Positions 21,438-27,310 of a DNA stretch of 29,507 nucleotides are shown here, one piece after another. The notes below the pieces were generated by a model. It was given only the letters and a program-made list of their open reading frames with translations. It made no database searches and had not been told where the DNA came from. Position numbers and translations under genes: made by a program. Source of the stretch: a virus; IMG/VR virus record IMGVR_UViG_3300046004_000785, positions 1 through 29,507 of that record; one strand, given 5' to 3'. Each line of letters starts with the position of its first letter. Within the stretch, counting starts at the first letter, position 1.

Positions 21438-22024
21438 GGAAGCCTCTCACAGACACCCAGAGACTAAACCTGTCGAAGGGCGTTGGGAGAGGCGGCAAGA
21501 GTCCGAGAGACCTGTGGATAGAACAAGGCATGACGGCTGCTGAAGCGGATGCCAGAGAGCTTGAGCGCATAGCTCTACAGCAAGCGGTACGCTCCCGTAC
21601 CATGGCCATTAGAGCTGAGAAGAAAGCGCTGTCACTTGGTCTCGGAGATGCTGTTGTCGTAGCCACAACCATTGAGGAAGTGAAGCGAGACATCACCAGA
21701 GAGTTCAAGCAGAGCCCGCTCAAGGGTATGCAGCGCCAGACAACAGTGGTTCGTCGTCAGCAGAAGCGGATGGCTGACACGGAGCTGCGTGAGCAACGCT
21801 CCCTCGACCCTCGCGTCAAAGGGTTAAAGGGTGTGACTGGCGTTGAGGTAGACGAGGACGGAACCATTGGCCTGAAAGCTCTGAGAGAGCAGCGGCCTGA
21901 CATCTTCGCCATGACGCCAATCCCTGTAGAGGGTCGTGAAGACGGCGCATCCAAGCGAATCAACCAAGCAAGACTGGCCAATGGCCGAGAGGATAAGTTC
22001 TATGACAAGCGTAAGCCCCGTTGA
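21434..22024 (+). CDS. Hypothetical protein in the packaging operon
   Basis: A 196-residue very basic, helical protein. It starts at GTG 21434, overlapping the TGA of the previous gene (GTGA). Segments of note: GMTAAEADARELERIALQQA, VKRDITREFKQSPLKGMQRQ, VRRQQKRMADTELREQRS and a C-terminal NQARLANGREDKFYDKRKPR. It overlaps the start of the large terminase by 23 bases. Possibly a packaging accessory or scaffold-like factor; no family recognised. Confidence 0.65.
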   Translation: MRKPLTDTQRLNLSKGVGRGGKSPRDLWIEQGMTAAEADARELERIALQQAVRSRTMAIRAEKKALSLGLGDAVVVATTIEEVKRDITREFKQSPLKGMQRQTTVVRRQQKRMADTELREQRSLDPRVKGLKGVTGVEVDEDGTIGLKALREQRPDIFAMTPIPVEGREDGASKRINQARLANGREDKFYDKRKPR

Positions 22025-24758
22025 TCAGAAGGAAGCAGCTCTATACCTGCTGCGTCTGCGGCAGAGTGCCAACAGCTTCCCCGGCTTCATGAGCTACTAC
22101 TACGACATGAGCTGGGAGGCGTTCCACATCGAGATGCAGGAGGTTCTTGATCTGCTGGAGAAGGACGCCCTCCTCTCTCGCGGTGGCAATCCGATCAGGA
22201 ATCTGCTGCTGACGATGCCTCCACGCCATGCCAAGAGCTTCAATGCGACGGTGAACTTTCCGGCCTATGCACTGATGCGGAAGCCGTACAGAGAGATCAT
22301 GATCAGCTCCTACAACGCTGAGCTGGCGGCTACGTTTGGCCGTGGCACTCGGGACATCGTGACGGATCAGAAGGCTCGCAAGGCGTTCAAGGGCTTCGAG
22401 ACCAGCAGAGAGACACGAGCGGTTGACTTCTGGAAGACGACGGCTGGCGGGGCGTACTACTCGGTTGGCCTGAACGGCACGACCACCGGCCGTGGAGCAA
22501 ACTGCTTGGCTGGCGATACTGAGTTGCTTGTCATGACTGGACGAGGAGCAACTTATACAACTACAATGACCTCTCTGTTCTACGACAAAGAGGCCACCCA
22601 TGTACTCTCCTACGACCACGCTACTAAGTCACCCGCTTGGGCAAGGATCAACTCCCACTCAAGAACTCCGGCGAGCGAATTATTTGAGATCAGCGATTCC
22701 TCTGGAGGAGTTGTTGAAGCTACTGGAGAGCATCCCTTCTACGTCGCAGGACGCGGGTACGTCGAGGCGAAAGACGTTGCCCCCGGCGATATTCTCTTGC
22801 GCCTGTTGCCAGAAGACCTCGATAAAGCAGGCGTTCGACGTTCTGAAGTCGATCAAGCGCGGGCACAAAGACCTGTACTGCTCTCTGAAGTGCAGTCAGA
22901 CGCACCATGCCACGAAGAACACACCTCTGTGCCGGGTGTGCGGAGAGCCAGCGAAGATGAACAGCTCAAGGAGGTATTGCAGTCCGGCTTGCTTGGATCA
23001 AGCGAGGGAGCTGAGGCTTGTGACTCACGTTCACCAGTGCAAGCAGTGCCTGTCGGAGTTCGAGTCCAAGAGCAGCAAAACTCAGTTCTGTTCCATGAGT
23101 TGCAAGAATATGCAACATTCGCAATCAATGACGATGGCGGGGAATCCGAGGTTCACGCACGGGCACTTCGGGGAGAAGCGTCAACCACACACGATCAAGG
23201 CGTTCACGAAAGCGCGTCCGAAGATCAGGGAGAGGGACGGGATGAAGTGCGTATCGTGCGGTTCCGTAGGGAGTCTGCACGTTCACCACATCGACCACAA
23301 CCCGTACAACTGCGTTTGGAGCAATCTGGTGACTCTGTGTGCGTCGTGCCATCACAAGCACCATGCCCACGAGAGGAAGACAGGCAAATCACTGTTTCCA
23401 TGGTTAGGCGAGTACGCAAAGAATGCTTCGTCTACAACATCTCCGTAGAGGGCAACGAGAACTACTTTGCCAACGGTGTTCTCACTCACAACTGCTTGGA
23501 GGTTGATGACCCGTACAAGTCTCGGGAAGAGGCTGACAGCGCGACACAGCGCCGTAAGGTCTGGGACTTCTATACCTCTGGCCTGCTCAGCCGGATGCAG
23601 CCGGACAGGGATGGACAGCCAGCGTTCCAGATCGTTACGCAGACCCGCTGGCACCCCGATGACATGGCTGGACGGATACAGGAGAGCGCGGAGTTCAAGC
23701 GCGGAGAGTGGCTCCACCTCAACTACCAAGCTCTGACGAAGAAGGAGCGGAAGGTCTATGTCCGCAGGAACTCGCTGCCAGAAGATGACCCTCGCTACGT
23801 GCCAAACGTGACGGTTGAGCAGATCGAGACCGGCCGACGCACCGACCATGAGGCTGGCGGCTTGCTGTCTGAAGGTCTGGTGACGCCAATGGTAGAGGTG
23901 TCGGATGAGTACACCGCCCTCTGGCCAAGCCGCTTCCCTGTCGAGTTCCTTCAAGGCCAACGCAGCGTGCTTGGCGAGCGGGATTTCCAGTCTCTGTACC
24001 AGCAGAGTCCCTATGTACTCGGTGGCAACATCGTCAAGGAGAACTGGTTTAAGCGGTACAACGCGGACACCAAGCCGCTGGAGTTCCATGCCATAGCCAT
24101 TGGCGTTGATACAGCATTCAAGGCCAAGGCGGTCAACGACTACTCCGTATTCACCGTCGCTGGCATCACAGAGATTGGCGACATCTACATCCTCAACGTC
24201 TTCAGAGACAAGCTGGAGTTCCCTGACCTGAAGCGCAAGGCCATAGCGATCAACTCAGCGTACCGTGGCCAAGGGCTACGAGGCTTCTGGATCGAGGACA
24301 ACGCTTCCGGCCAGTCGCTTATCCAAGAGCTGAGGGCCAACAGCGGAGTGCCAGTGATCCCGTGGAAGCCGGGAGCGAACGACAAGGTGCTGCGTATGAC
24401 GAGCATCACGCCGTTGATCGAGAGTGGCCGGGTGTTCATACCCGAGGAGGCGCATTGGCTTGAGGACTGGCTGGGAGAGCTGGTTCAGTTCCCGTCCGTC
24501 AAGCACGACGATCAGGCCGACAGCTTTGTGATCGTGGTGGACGTTCTGAGCAGGATGGTAGTGACTGGCCTCAAGGAGTTCACAGCACCGATTGGAGAGT
24601 TGATGGGCAAGACAGGCTTCAAGGACTTGCTGTTTGCTGGTCAGGAGATGAAATCAGACCCGAATGGATGGGGTGGTAGCGGCGGGAGCTTTGGCGCTGC
24701 TGTAGGCGGCTCTGGTGGACTTGGTGGATTCGGAGCTTGGAAGGGCTGGGGTCAGTAA
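22002..24758 (+). CDS. terL: Terminase large subunit interrupted by an intein
   Basis: A 918-residue precursor from ATG 22002 (GAGGA nine bases upstream). N-extein residues 1-167 carry the ATPase Walker A-like PPRHAKS (73-79) and end GTTTGRGAN. The 330-residue intein follows. The C-extein begins CLEVDDPYKS, the Walker B of terminases, so the intein sits directly before the catalytic acidic pair. The C-terminal half has the RNase H-like nuclease: AIGVDTAFKAKAVNDYSVFT (Asp), FWIEDNASGQSLIQEL and VKHDDQADSFVIVV (Asp). After splicing, a 588-residue motor-nuclease would remain, normal for the family. The tail is Gly-rich. The enzyme cuts and pumps phage DNA into proheads through the portal encoded downstream. 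Confidence 0.92.
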   Translation: MTSVSPVDQKEAALYLLRLRQSANSFPGFMSYYYDMSWEAFHIEMQEVLDLLEKDALLSRGGNPIRNLLLTMPPRHAKSFNATVNFPAYALMRKPYREIMISSYNAELAATFGRGTRDIVTDQKARKAFKGFETSRETRAVDFWKTTAGGAYYSVGLNGTTTGRGANCLAGDTELLVMTGRGATYTTTMTSLFYDKEATHVLSYDHATKSPAWARINSHSRTPASELFEISDSSGGVVEATGEHPFYVAGRGYVEAKDVAPGDILLRLLPEDLDKAGVRRSEVDQARAQRPVLLSEVQSDAPCHEEHTSVPGVRRASEDEQLKEVLQSGLLGSSEGAEACDSRSPVQAVPVGVRVQEQQNSVLFHELQEYATFAINDDGGESEVHARALRGEASTTHDQGVHESASEDQGEGRDEVRIVRFRRESARSPHRPQPVQLRLEQSGDSVCVVPSQAPCPREEDRQITVSMVRRVRKECFVYNISVEGNENYFANGVLTHNCLEVDDPYKSREEADSATQRRKVWDFYTSGLLSRMQPDRDGQPAFQIVTQTRWHPDDMAGRIQESAEFKRGEWLHLNYQALTKKERKVYVRRNSLPEDDPRYVPNVTVEQIETGRRTDHEAGGLLSEGLVTPMVEVSDEYTALWPSRFPVEFLQGQRSVLGERDFQSLYQQSPYVLGGNIVKENWFKRYNADTKPLEFHAIAIGVDTAFKAKAVNDYSVFTVAGITEIGDIYILNVFRDKLEFPDLKRKAIAINSAYRGQGLRGFWIEDNASGQSLIQELRANSGVPVIPWKPGANDKVLRMTSITPLIESGRVFIPEEAHWLEDWLGELVQFPSVKHDDQADSFVIVVDVLSRMVVTGLKEFTAPIGELMGKTGFKDLLFAGQEMKSDPNGWGGSGGSFGAAVGGSGGLGGFGAWKGWGQ
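22503..23492 (+). mobile_element. Intein in the large terminase (Hint domain)
   Basis: Block A: CLAGDTELLV with Cys1 at 22503. Block B: EATGEHPFYV with the TxxH His. The Hint N-part ends near EAKDVAPGDILL (about 22801). Block F/G: CFVYNISVEGNENYF and NGVLTHN, ending in His-Asn, with Cys as the +1 extein residue (codon 23493). All residues needed for Cys-type splicing are present. Both splice junctions have the same ten bases, AACTGCTTGG. The roughly 200 codons between the two Hint halves read as a low-complexity, charged linker in this frame because the endonuclease is encoded in another frame. Confidence 0.9.
22600..23448 (+). CDS. HNH homing endonuclease nested out of frame inside the intein
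   Basis: This frame is +1 relative to terminase and intein. From about 22789 it is clearly protein-like: a row of zinc-finger pairs (FSCACCQKTS ... LYCSLKCSQTHH, PLCRVCGEPAKM ... RYCSPACLDQ, HQCKQCLSEF ... QFCSMSCKN), then the HNH core IRERDGMKCVSCGSVGSLHV, HHIDHNPYNCVWSNLVTLCA and SCHHKHHAHE. It ends at its own TAG (23446-23448) within the intein C-terminal block. Codon use is normal in this frame. Possible starts: ATG 22600, with AAAGAGG six bases upstream (282 residues), or TTG 22777, with GAGG nine bases upstream (223 residues). It would cut intein-free terminase genes and so spread the element. Intein endonucleases are normally fused in frame, so this nesting is unusual. Confidence 0.85.
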   Translation: MYSPTTTLLSHPLGQGSTPTQELRRANYLRSAIPLEELLKLLESIPSTSQDAGTSRRKTLPPAIFSCACCQKTSIKQAFDVLKSIKRGHKDLYCSLKCSQTHHATKNTPLCRVCGEPAKMNSSRRYCSPACLDQARELRLVTHVHQCKQCLSEFESKSSKTQFCSMSCKNMQHSQSMTMAGNPRFTHGHFGEKRQPHTIKAFTKARPKIRERDGMKCVSCGSVGSLHVHHIDHNPYNCVWSNLVTLCASCHHKHHAHERKTGKSLFPWLGEYAKNASSTTSP

Positions 24759-24783
24759 TCTCGAAGCTCAAGTTTGAGCCGCG

Positions 24784-24819
24784 AAAAAGAAAACCCCGGT
24801 AGCTTGCAGACCACCGGGG
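24784..24819 (-). terminator. Rho-independent terminator of the minus-strand ncRNA
   Basis: Minus strand: CCCCGGTGGT (24819-24810), loop CTGCAA, GCTACCGGGG (24803-24794), then TTTTCTTTTT. This is a 10-bp stem with two G-U pairs and a 10-base U-rich tail. On the plus strand the sequence after the hairpin is not T-rich, so the signal works for minus-strand transcription. It may also protect against transcription running backwards into the terminase gene. Confidence 0.8.
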
Positions 24820-25347
24820 CTAAACCTCTTCCGAGGAACTAGGACACATGACACACAGAAACACAGGTGCAAGTGTAGCCTACTTACGCGACGAGGATGG
24901 TTGGCTGACGAGGTGGACGAGGCTTAAACAAAGGAGTGCCTACTGGAAATGAATCCAGCAGGCATCTCTTTAATGGCAGCTTTCCGCTTCTCAGCGTCTT
25001 GCACGGTCTGCCAACTTACCACCGCTACCCACCAGAACTGAACGGTGGACGCCGATAAGCGATTGCTCCTTTGGTGCTGCATCTTCTTTGCACCAGATAC
25101 TGTCAGGTAAGAACGTAGTAGTGTTGGTGCTGCGGGTCTACACATCGAAAGAGCAAATACTCAATTACACGATGCTTCCAACCGCTACCCCATGCCAACA
25201 TCAAAACCCGATAGACCCCGACAGGCTGGGACGCACCACGCAAAAAGCCGTTTACAACTGCCCTCTGATCGCACGCCCCAAGTATTAGTTGGAGCCAGAA
25301 GGCATGTGTAAACGGCTTGAATTTCTTTGTCGAGTGCGATCCCAACG
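24785..25347 (-). ncRNA. Large structured noncoding RNA candidate, about 560 nt
   Basis: This gap between terminase and portal has no convincing gene. On the minus strand it is framed by a promoter (25382-25354) and a terminator. Helices seen: 25318-25307 with 25256-25245 (12 bp, perfect); 25304-25297 with 25266-25259 (8 bp, one G-U); 25295-25289 with 25281-25275 (7 bp, one G-U). The 8-base bulge 25274-25267 pairs exactly with 25341-25334, a pseudoknot. Further helices: 25218-25212/25140-25134, 25174-25170/25147-25143, 25095-25090/25077-25072, 25048-25043/25024-25019, 25013-25008/24979-24974. The hairpin 24971-24930 has about 17 bp. Loops GAGA (24992-24989) and GGAA (24832-24829) are GNRA type on this strand. 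G-U pairs would be C-A mismatches on the plus strand. Family unknown; phage-borne large ornate RNAs are a comparison only. Confidence 0.65.
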
Positions 25348-25353
25348 GGGTGA

Positions 25354-25382
25354 ATAGTAGCATTAATTTAGGACGAAAGCAA
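25354..25382 (-). promoter_or_regulatory. Sigma70-like promoter of the ncRNA
   Basis: Minus strand: TTGCTT (25382-25377), 17-base spacer, TACTAT (25359-25354). This is the best consensus match noticed in the window. Transcription would start near 25347 and run away from the portal gene, ending at the terminator near 24785. The spacing (17) differs from the 16 bases of the repeated minus-strand promoters. Confidence 0.6.
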
Positions 25383-25396
25383 TTTTATGTGTGAAA

Positions 25397-27310
25397 ATGT
25401 CATCCATGAACTCCTCTTGGTTTGACTATCGCTCGACTGGCCTTGGTGACAGCGTTACCGTGGCCGACCTGTCCAAATATGCTGACAAGCTGATGGGGTA
25501 CAACGACATCTCGGAAGACTTGTCTCACGACGAGGAGAAGCGGCTTGTCGAGTACGTCAAGACGATCTCAGAGATGTCTTACAAGTCGATCTCCAAGCGG
25601 TACGACTCTTGGAAAGATGCTGACCGGGCGCACGATCTCTACGTTCCAGCCGAGGCAACCGCCTTCAGGAACAAGGTTGTCATCGCTGACACCCGCGCCA
25701 TCTCCGACACCGTTCTCACCTACTTCATGGCAGCGATCACTGGCCGGAACCCCATGTTCCAGCTCGAAGGATTGAACCGCGCCAGCCGCAAACCAGCCGT
25801 TCTTCTTGAGCGCGTGCTCCATCAACAGATGCGTGCAGGCGCTGGGGAAGCGCGACTGGCCCAGCAGTTCCTTGACCTGATTCGCTACGGCTTCGCGCCT
25901 ACCAAGTACGTCTGGAACGACAAGGCCAACTCCAACGTAATCGTCAACTGCGACCCCCGTAAGACCTTCCCTGACCCTCGTGCTCAGGCTGGCGCCGTGG
26001 ACAAGATGCAGTTCATCGTGTTCTCCGACCATGCCTCCGGCTCTTCGCTGCGTCGTTCCGGCATGTACCCGAAGATCACGAAGTACCCACGGATGCTGGA
26101 GAACTCCACTGTCGTCGCTGGCTGGGATAGCCACCAGTGGCACAAGGAGTCTGGCAATGGCTGGAACGTCAACCCCAACACCCTGATGGATGGCAGCTCG
26201 AACCACCAGTTCAAGGTTGGCCGGAGCCACGTCATTGATGAGGCTTGGATTTGCTTCAACGGCTACGAGCTTGGAATGCCAAGCCTTGGCGAGGTGTGGA
26301 TGGTTGTGACCATCGTTGACGAGCGCTTCGTCATCCGCGCCCAGCTCTCACCTTACGGCCGACAGTTCCCTTGCGTAGCTCCGGGCTTCGGCTTCGACAG
26401 CCACAAGACGCACCAGCAGAGCTTGTACGACATGCTCCTGCCACTGCACGAGCTTGGCACTTGGCTCCTCCGCAGCCGCGTGGACAACGTGCAGGCCGCT
26501 CTCAACAACCTGATCTTCGCTGACCCGACGAAGGTGGCGATCCACGATCTGATCAACCGCAACCCTTGGGGCATCGTTAGAACCTTGCCGGGAACCAAGC
26601 CGGGAGAAGGCGTCCACATCGCTCAGGTGCCGGACGTTACCGCTGGCCACTACCGCGACATGCAGTTCCTGACTGACATGAAGCAGCGCGTGGCAGCCGC
26701 CTCCGACGCTCAGCAGGGTATGCCCACCGGGGATGTCCGCACAGCTACCGAGATTCAGCGCCTGACTCAGCTTGGCTCTCAGCGCCTTGGCGTGTTGTCG
26801 AGGGTGATCTCCGCCACCGGCATTCGTCCGGGCGTGCGGATGATGGCCAGCAACATCCAAGACGCACTCAACTACTCCGGCTCTCTCCGCGTCAAGGAAG
26901 ATCAGAACAGCGATCTGCTGCGCGGAATGGTGGACAACGGCTACGTCAACTATGACGTGGGCATGTTGCAGGGCGAGATCGAGTACATGGTTGTGGACGG
27001 CACCCTGCCTCTGGAGCCAACCCGCAGTCCAGAGACTTGGATGAACATCCTGCAAGTTGTGAATCAGTCTGGATTGCAACTTGAGTACGACACTGGAGCC
27101 ATGATTGAAGAGGCGATCAAGAGCATGGGAATCCCTGATGTCGATCAATTCAGAATATCGAGAGACAAACTCCAAAGCGAGGGACTCAGCCCAAGTCAGA
27201 AGATGGCTTTGATGGAGAAGTCTCGCGGTCAATCAGCGGTAGTTGATCAGAACGAGCTTGAGCAACAGATCACACGCGGAAACATCACTCCACTCAGGGC
27301 TGCAGCATGA
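25397..27310 (+). CDS. Portal protein (head-tail connector)
   Basis: A 637-residue protein from ATG 25397 (an in-frame GTG at 25391 is also possible; the ribosome site is weak). Long helical N-terminal part (DEEKRLVEYVKTISEMSYKS, KRYDSWKDADRAHDLYVP), a core with NKVVIADTRAISDTVLTYFM and PMFQLEGLNR, a stem-like QQSLYDMLLPLHELGTWLLR, and a region QGMPTGDVRTATEIQRLTQLG ahead of a long C-terminal helix zone. The 'T..T.......l...' helix before the crown is typical of portal proteins of podovirus-like phages. It forms the ring through which terminase pumps DNA. Its size and position right after terminase support the call. Confidence 0.75.
   Translation: MSSMNSSWFDYRSTGLGDSVTVADLSKYADKLMGYNDISEDLSHDEEKRLVEYVKTISEMSYKSISKRYDSWKDADRAHDLYVPAEATAFRNKVVIADTRAISDTVLTYFMAAITGRNPMFQLEGLNRASRKPAVLLERVLHQQMRAGAGEARLAQQFLDLIRYGFAPTKYVWNDKANSNVIVNCDPRKTFPDPRAQAGAVDKMQFIVFSDHASGSSLRRSGMYPKITKYPRMLENSTVVAGWDSHQWHKESGNGWNVNPNTLMDGSSNHQFKVGRSHVIDEAWICFNGYELGMPSLGEVWMVVTIVDERFVIRAQLSPYGRQFPCVAPGFGFDSHKTHQQSLYDMLLPLHELGTWLLRSRVDNVQAALNNLIFADPTKVAIHDLINRNPWGIVRTLPGTKPGEGVHIAQVPDVTAGHYRDMQFLTDMKQRVAAASDAQQGMPTGDVRTATEIQRLTQLGSQRLGVLSRVISATGIRPGVRMMASNIQDALNYSGSLRVKEDQNSDLLRGMVDNGYVNYDVGMLQGEIEYMVVDGTLPLEPTRSPETWMNILQVVNQSGLQLEYDTGAMIEEAIKSMGIPDVDQFRISRDKLQSEGLSPSQKMALMEKSRGQSAVVDQNELEQQITRGNITPLRAAA

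Follow-up and report, generated by a model that had tools for sequence, protein, structure and literature searches.

Between the genes for the terminase large subunit and the portal of a phage genome in IMG/VR lies, on the minus strand, what is probably an autonomous transcription unit for a predicted phage noncoding RNA, whose family is absent from Rfam 15 (we put this reading at about 60%). The window, that is the whole stretch of DNA analysed, is a virus record of 29,507 bases. On our best reading of the combined analyses, the RNA would belong to a new family of the same general kind as GOLLD and ROOL.

The gap between the two packaging genes measures 630 nt and contains no recognised gene. 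The window has 13 portal relatives, 12 of which also contain the end of the terminase (not seen in L014), and the slot sequence was compared in nine of these 12 loci. A minus-strand open frame, read off the sequence, occupies the slot in L003, L008, L010 and L011 (that of L010 had no PHROGs match), there is no insert in L004, L006 and L012 nor, judged by match coordinates only, in L005, L007 and L013, and L009 and L015 have other sequence. Since the content of the slot varies in this way, we regard the RNA as an exchangeable insert outside the packaging genes. A separate observation concerns the neighbouring terminase gene (21936-24758), whose intein is overlapped in another reading frame by a plus-strand frame of 282 aa (22600-23448). 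This frame is conserved at 72% over 282 aa in L010 and at 58% over 277 aa in L003. It shows an HNH-like spacing of cysteines and histidines by eye, no Pfam domain was named in it, and it is possibly a homing endonuclease gene overprinted on the intein.

Folded as the minus strand, the 599 nt analysed are more stable than 100 out of 100 shuffles (z -5.4), compared with z -4.3 and one equally good shuffle in 100 for the plus strand. The 5' module of 115 nt, here called the head, combines two hairpins, a short one (P1) and a long one (P2) ending in a U run; the loop of P1 pairs with a strand internal to P2. P2 is built from outer arms (25318-25307 and 25256-25245), inner arms (25303-25297 and 25266-25260) and an apical hairpin (25295-25289 with 25281-25275). 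The features of the locus are as follows.

21936 to 24758, plus strand: terminase large subunit with intein, neighbour of the RNA slot
24785 to 24821, minus strand: intrinsic terminator with U-rich tail, stem 24821-24792, probable 3' end
24785 to 25233, minus strand: body, about 450 nt, assessed by fold z, body-core model R2 and scans for relatives
25234 to 25348, minus strand: head module of P1, kissing pseudoknot, P2 and U run, from the match to covariance model R3 and covariation
25242 to 25246, minus strand: U run after P2 (TTTTT, 25246-25242), terminator-like and conserved in relatives (alignment A2)
25245 to 25318, minus strand: P2, from covariation
25267 to 25274, minus strand: 3' kissing strand (GTGCGATC), internal to P2, from covariation
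25329 to 25346, minus strand: P1 hairpin, arms 25346-25342 and 25333-25329, the loop holding a kissing strand
25334 to 25341, minus strand: 5' kissing strand (GATCGCAC), in the P1 loop, from covariation
25354 to 25382, minus strand: promoter-like TTGCTT-17-TACTAT, with TTGCTT at 25382-25377 and TACTAT at 25359-25354
25391 to 27310: SU10-type portal, neighbour of the RNA slot

Relatives of the head were collected from IMG/VR by a scan with the back-translated 86-aa frame of the minus strand, which yielded nine loci from 11 stretches, all covering the 5' part of the RNA, and by two head motif scans, with 10 true heads on reading among 19 stretches in the first and 19 among 38 in the second. After removal of duplicates (L120 and L023, which repeat L104 and L022), 18 distinct sequences including the window formed the head alignment A2. 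In these, 98.7% of 700 cells are paired and 13 out of 39 pairs, in 35 cells, change on both sides, whereas slid controls are paired at 38-50% with double changes in at most three pairs and three cells; none of the shuffles attained the observed values. The kissing helix, of which seven pairs were counted, is paired in 100% of cells and changes on both sides in four of the seven, P1 is likewise 100% paired with such a change in one of five pairs, P2 reaches 98.8% with five of 19, and the apical hairpin of P2 is paired in 96.5% of cells. Read as minus-strand RNA, the 18 heads contain 63 G-U cells and a single A-C cell, which fixes the strand of the head and extends across the relatives the G-U polarity that had been read from the window. 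Furthermore, the covariance model R3, built from the 17 other heads with the window excluded, matched the window head with 72.8 bits (E 1.1e-14), and its other matches in the 16 sources were confined to the L137 head and weak ones on the opposite strands of both heads.

The original prediction had described a structured minus-strand RNA with an 8-bp pseudoknot joining 25341-25334 to 25274-25267. The pseudoknot is present and changes in a compensatory manner in relatives, as do the helices P1 and P2, and the structured RNA is borne out by covariation over the 5' 115 nt, by the independent R3 match and by broken reading frames in six out of 18 heads. Compensatory changes in related phages had been proposed as one check, and helices that do not covary beside a conserved open frame as one refutation; on both counts the outcome favours RNA. 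A protein-coding stretch or pseudogene, perhaps the wreck of the slot protein of the relatives, is extremely improbable: minus-strand frames of 86 and 73 aa do exist in the window and relatives hold a minus-strand frame in the same slot, but the changes in the head are compensatory and the insertions and deletions in those six heads fall in the commonest open head frame. The 86- and 73-aa frames were rejected as proteins since neither has a Pfam match and tblastn gave a best E of 2 for the first and nothing for the second.

In the relatives, a second noncoding module, the body, lies 3' of the head, and two body motifs found at least 120 stretches (one motif) and 109 stretches (the other) in IMG/VR. 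Among the matches listed, 192 distinct regions upstream of the body motifs include 173 with a P2-like stem and U run, and in 135 of these 173 the P1 loop matches the P2 interior over at least 7 nt (59 of 847 swapped controls), although the 135 matches are not independent events because the upstream regions are interrelated. These 135 heads, again among the matches listed, use 68 different kissing sequences. R3 was run on 93 of the loci, chosen by body motif alone, and gave 71 matches, that is 66 loci after subtraction of five opposite-strand doubles. Judged from sequence, the same predicted head fold is thus common to many uncultured phages despite changing sequences.

Matches among 50,697 deposited phage records were limited to MW202484 and MW202753, which both come from Manatee Spring, and one further query of phage records gave none. 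At the DNA level the RNA of the window had a single match in phages, of 27 nt (E 0.6) in three Edwardsiella phage records, and the plasmid searches gave no match. A motif scan of genome contigs returned 60 stretches, none a true head when read in context, and 369 genomes of one class and eight single genomes all lacked the body motif. Genes annotated as hypothetical proteins cover the RNA in both of the deposited relatives, and in deposited phage records such annotations lie over the RNA at 2947-3306 of L137 and 2847-3278 of L138. Ahead of the B-type body of L138, at 2848-2990, there is a head that shares the topology but is unrelated in sequence (kissing strands CTGATAAC and GTTATCAG).

Transcription signals frame the RNA in the window. 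The promoter was found as described, 7 nt before P1, though only seven of its 12 bases agree with the consensus, and a promoter scan of the window at a threshold of 9/12 found none. Its support comes from its place, because a -10 box ending 7 nt before P1 has the commonest spacing in the family: sigma-70-like sites of at least 8/12 precede P1 in 119 of the 135 heads compared with 22 of 135 after shuffling, and the distance from the end of the -10 box to P1 is exactly 7 nt in 54 heads and within 4-8 nt in 95. The window therefore shares with the family a promoter beside P1 and a U run after P2, the promoter itself being weak; this weakness by consensus counts against the autonomous reading. At the other end, the predicted terminator with a U-rich tail is present in the same direction, with a 12-pair stem (7 G-C), a loop of 6 and the tail TTCTTTTTCG.

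The helices drawn in the 3' 450 nt of the window, its body, gained no backing, since the fold of this part is weak and shows no strand preference (z -2.2 for the minus strand, -2.8 for the plus) and no relatives were found: 39 pattern stretches yielded none that was confirmed, and the body-core model R2 gave at most 2.4 bits (R2 also misses L022, L024, L036 and L106). A conserved body core, which in relatives begins 10-36 nt after P2, was not detected in the window. The lack of relatives, of an R2 match and of a minus-strand fold preference counts against the autonomous reading. The window therefore belongs to the family through its head, whereas its body is peculiar to it; its terminator is good. 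The predicted length of about 560 nt is supported by the terminator and the promoter-head-body layout of the relatives, and not by conserved structure in the 3' part of the window. In the relatives, 93.8% of 1163 cells are paired in bodies of subtype B1 and double changes occur in 21 of 66 pairs (96 cells), compared with at most 13 pairs and 19 cells in slid controls; an RNAalifold structure of subtype B2 (A4) was discarded owing to poor alignment. Some variation in layout was seen as well. Eight out of 27 B1 bodies are longer (349-419 vs 209-257 nt), and in L155, L176, L180 and L192 the head stands upstream of the body motif by far more than the usual 10-36 nt, so that an extra domain seems to be inserted between them. 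By eye, an open frame is apparently inserted between head and body at about 5150-5450 of L022, and is missing from L024.

Downstream of the RNA, L149 and L153 have an intrinsic terminator and then, on the opposite strand, the next recognised gene (sigma-factor-like; phrog_2693), and in L140 a terminator follows the RNA with a major head gene about 500 nt further on. As the window is of the same kind, we prefer an autonomous RNA, with a cis-acting leader as the main rival. The latter, a possible though clearly less probable explanation, would make the RNA an early-operon leader, its head acting as a regulated terminator or else as an antiterminator RNA like HK022 put, the window holding a displaced copy. 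As a leader would have it, P1 begins at about +1 and the U run at the end of P2 is conserved, and the head would decide in cis whether polymerase passes this U run into the body and the downstream genes. The RNA of L016 lies ahead of two genes, one small and regulator-like, the other replication-initiation-like, and the next same-strand open frame begins at a median of 37 nt (B1) or 132 nt (B2) by crude calls. Terminator-like sites within 110 nt of the body end are few, 5 in 74 relatives compared with 3 in 74 for a control region, and together with the many bodies that run into a same-strand early gene they suggest that the RNA could be a leader in most phages. Against this, the window, L149 and L153 have no same-strand gene directly after the RNA, the terminator closing the unit, and a leader alone leaves the conserved and covarying body unexplained. 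Crude frames placed the next gene on the same strand in 57 of 79 cases and on the opposite strand in 22, a count that was set aside because 15 inspected loci showed shadow frames among the opposite ones.

That the head alone is the functional product, P2 and its U run ending a small RNA about 100 nt long and the rest being spacer, is unlikely. The terminator-like end of P2 and the failure to find relatives of the window body would fit this, but the body of the relatives follows 10-36 nt after the head and covaries, and 450 nt further along the window there is another good terminator. Replication-primer transcripts are exemplified by ColE1 RNA II, and a role as primer or origin transcript of that type is very improbable here. 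The length, the hairpins near the 5' end and the replication genes nearby in some relatives are compatible with it, as is the cumulative GC skew of the window, which peaks near 24.5-25 kb (24501-25250); this peak may, however, reflect only the composition of this element, with its C-rich plus strand.

Under the preferred autonomous reading, transcription would start at about the first base of P1, as the promoter spacing suggests. P1 would fold on emerging, and its loop would then capture the complementary strand inside P2 to give a compact kissing fold at the 5' end, whose base pairs are shown by covariation and whose three-dimensional arrangement we infer. The U run at the end of P2 may release a fraction of the transcripts as RNAs about 100 nt long, while the remaining ones would read on into the body and end, in the window phage, at the terminator near 24785. 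The body would presumably act in trans, with the head as a putative folding, stability or assembly domain. In the window the unit fills a terminase-portal slot in which the nearest relatives have a minus-strand open frame or nothing.

A bolder and rather doubtful extension treats the kissing pair as a specificity tag, the short head RNA that stops at the U run also kissing the nascent heads of like RNAs in trans. Such trans kissing might, again doubtfully, decide whether polymerase stops or reads on, as in an RNA-only immunity or copy-control system; with similar reserve, the body could be a second, trans-acting product, and the system could have spread through uncultured phages. The 68 kissing sequences in 135 heads, each matched within its own molecule, are what a specificity tag would lead one to expect.

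Overall, a structured RNA in more than 100 uncultured phage contigs lacks an Rfam entry, and its kissing pair, changing in step across many sequences, is a defined and testable object. Should the RNA act like GOLLD or ROOL, it would widen a class without known role; should it work as an attenuator, the control of phage genes would gain a new RNA switch.

Comparison with known families gave no assignment. No family of Rfam 15, GOLLD and ROOL included, matches the RNA of the window or of the relatives scanned, nor did the group I and group II intron models match in any of these. At E up to 10 the window gave seven Rfam matches, the best with E 0.023 and all below the gathering score, the best three lying on the terminator hairpin. 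L016-L024 had none (at E up to 5, none in L016 and three sub-threshold in L019), and 14 further loci had only tRNA, Proteo-phage-1 and int-alpA. In the portions of the literature searched, no account of this RNA was found.

The P4 immunity RNA (cI RNA) and the kissing RNAs of plasmid copy control are short and structured, their pairing sequences set specificity, and they belong to the leader of replication genes; the present RNA differs in that both kissing strands are in one molecule, its action in trans being hypothetical. HK022 put is a structured RNA in early phage transcripts (PMC9378689) and is in this respect alike; put is a cis element, however, whereas the unit of the window is closed by a terminator of its own, with no gene after it.

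GOLLD and ROOL are large structured noncoding RNAs found in phages and prophages; they contain pseudoknots or kissing loops and are encoded near tRNAs, and GOLLD has one half that is conserved, another that is less so, and sometimes an internal tRNA (PMC12286853). With regard to tRNAs, a tRNA-like structure is present inside the RNA of L151 (3327-3442, minus strand) and two tRNA genes lie just upstream of the head in L162 (896-1062, plus strand), the only one of 19 loci scanned with tRNA genes; none was found in the window. The kissing-head RNA differs from both families in lacking an Rfam match to either, in its U run after P2 and in the promoter beside P1, and it is smaller than GOLLD. GOLLD and ROOL are nevertheless the nearest to it in kind.
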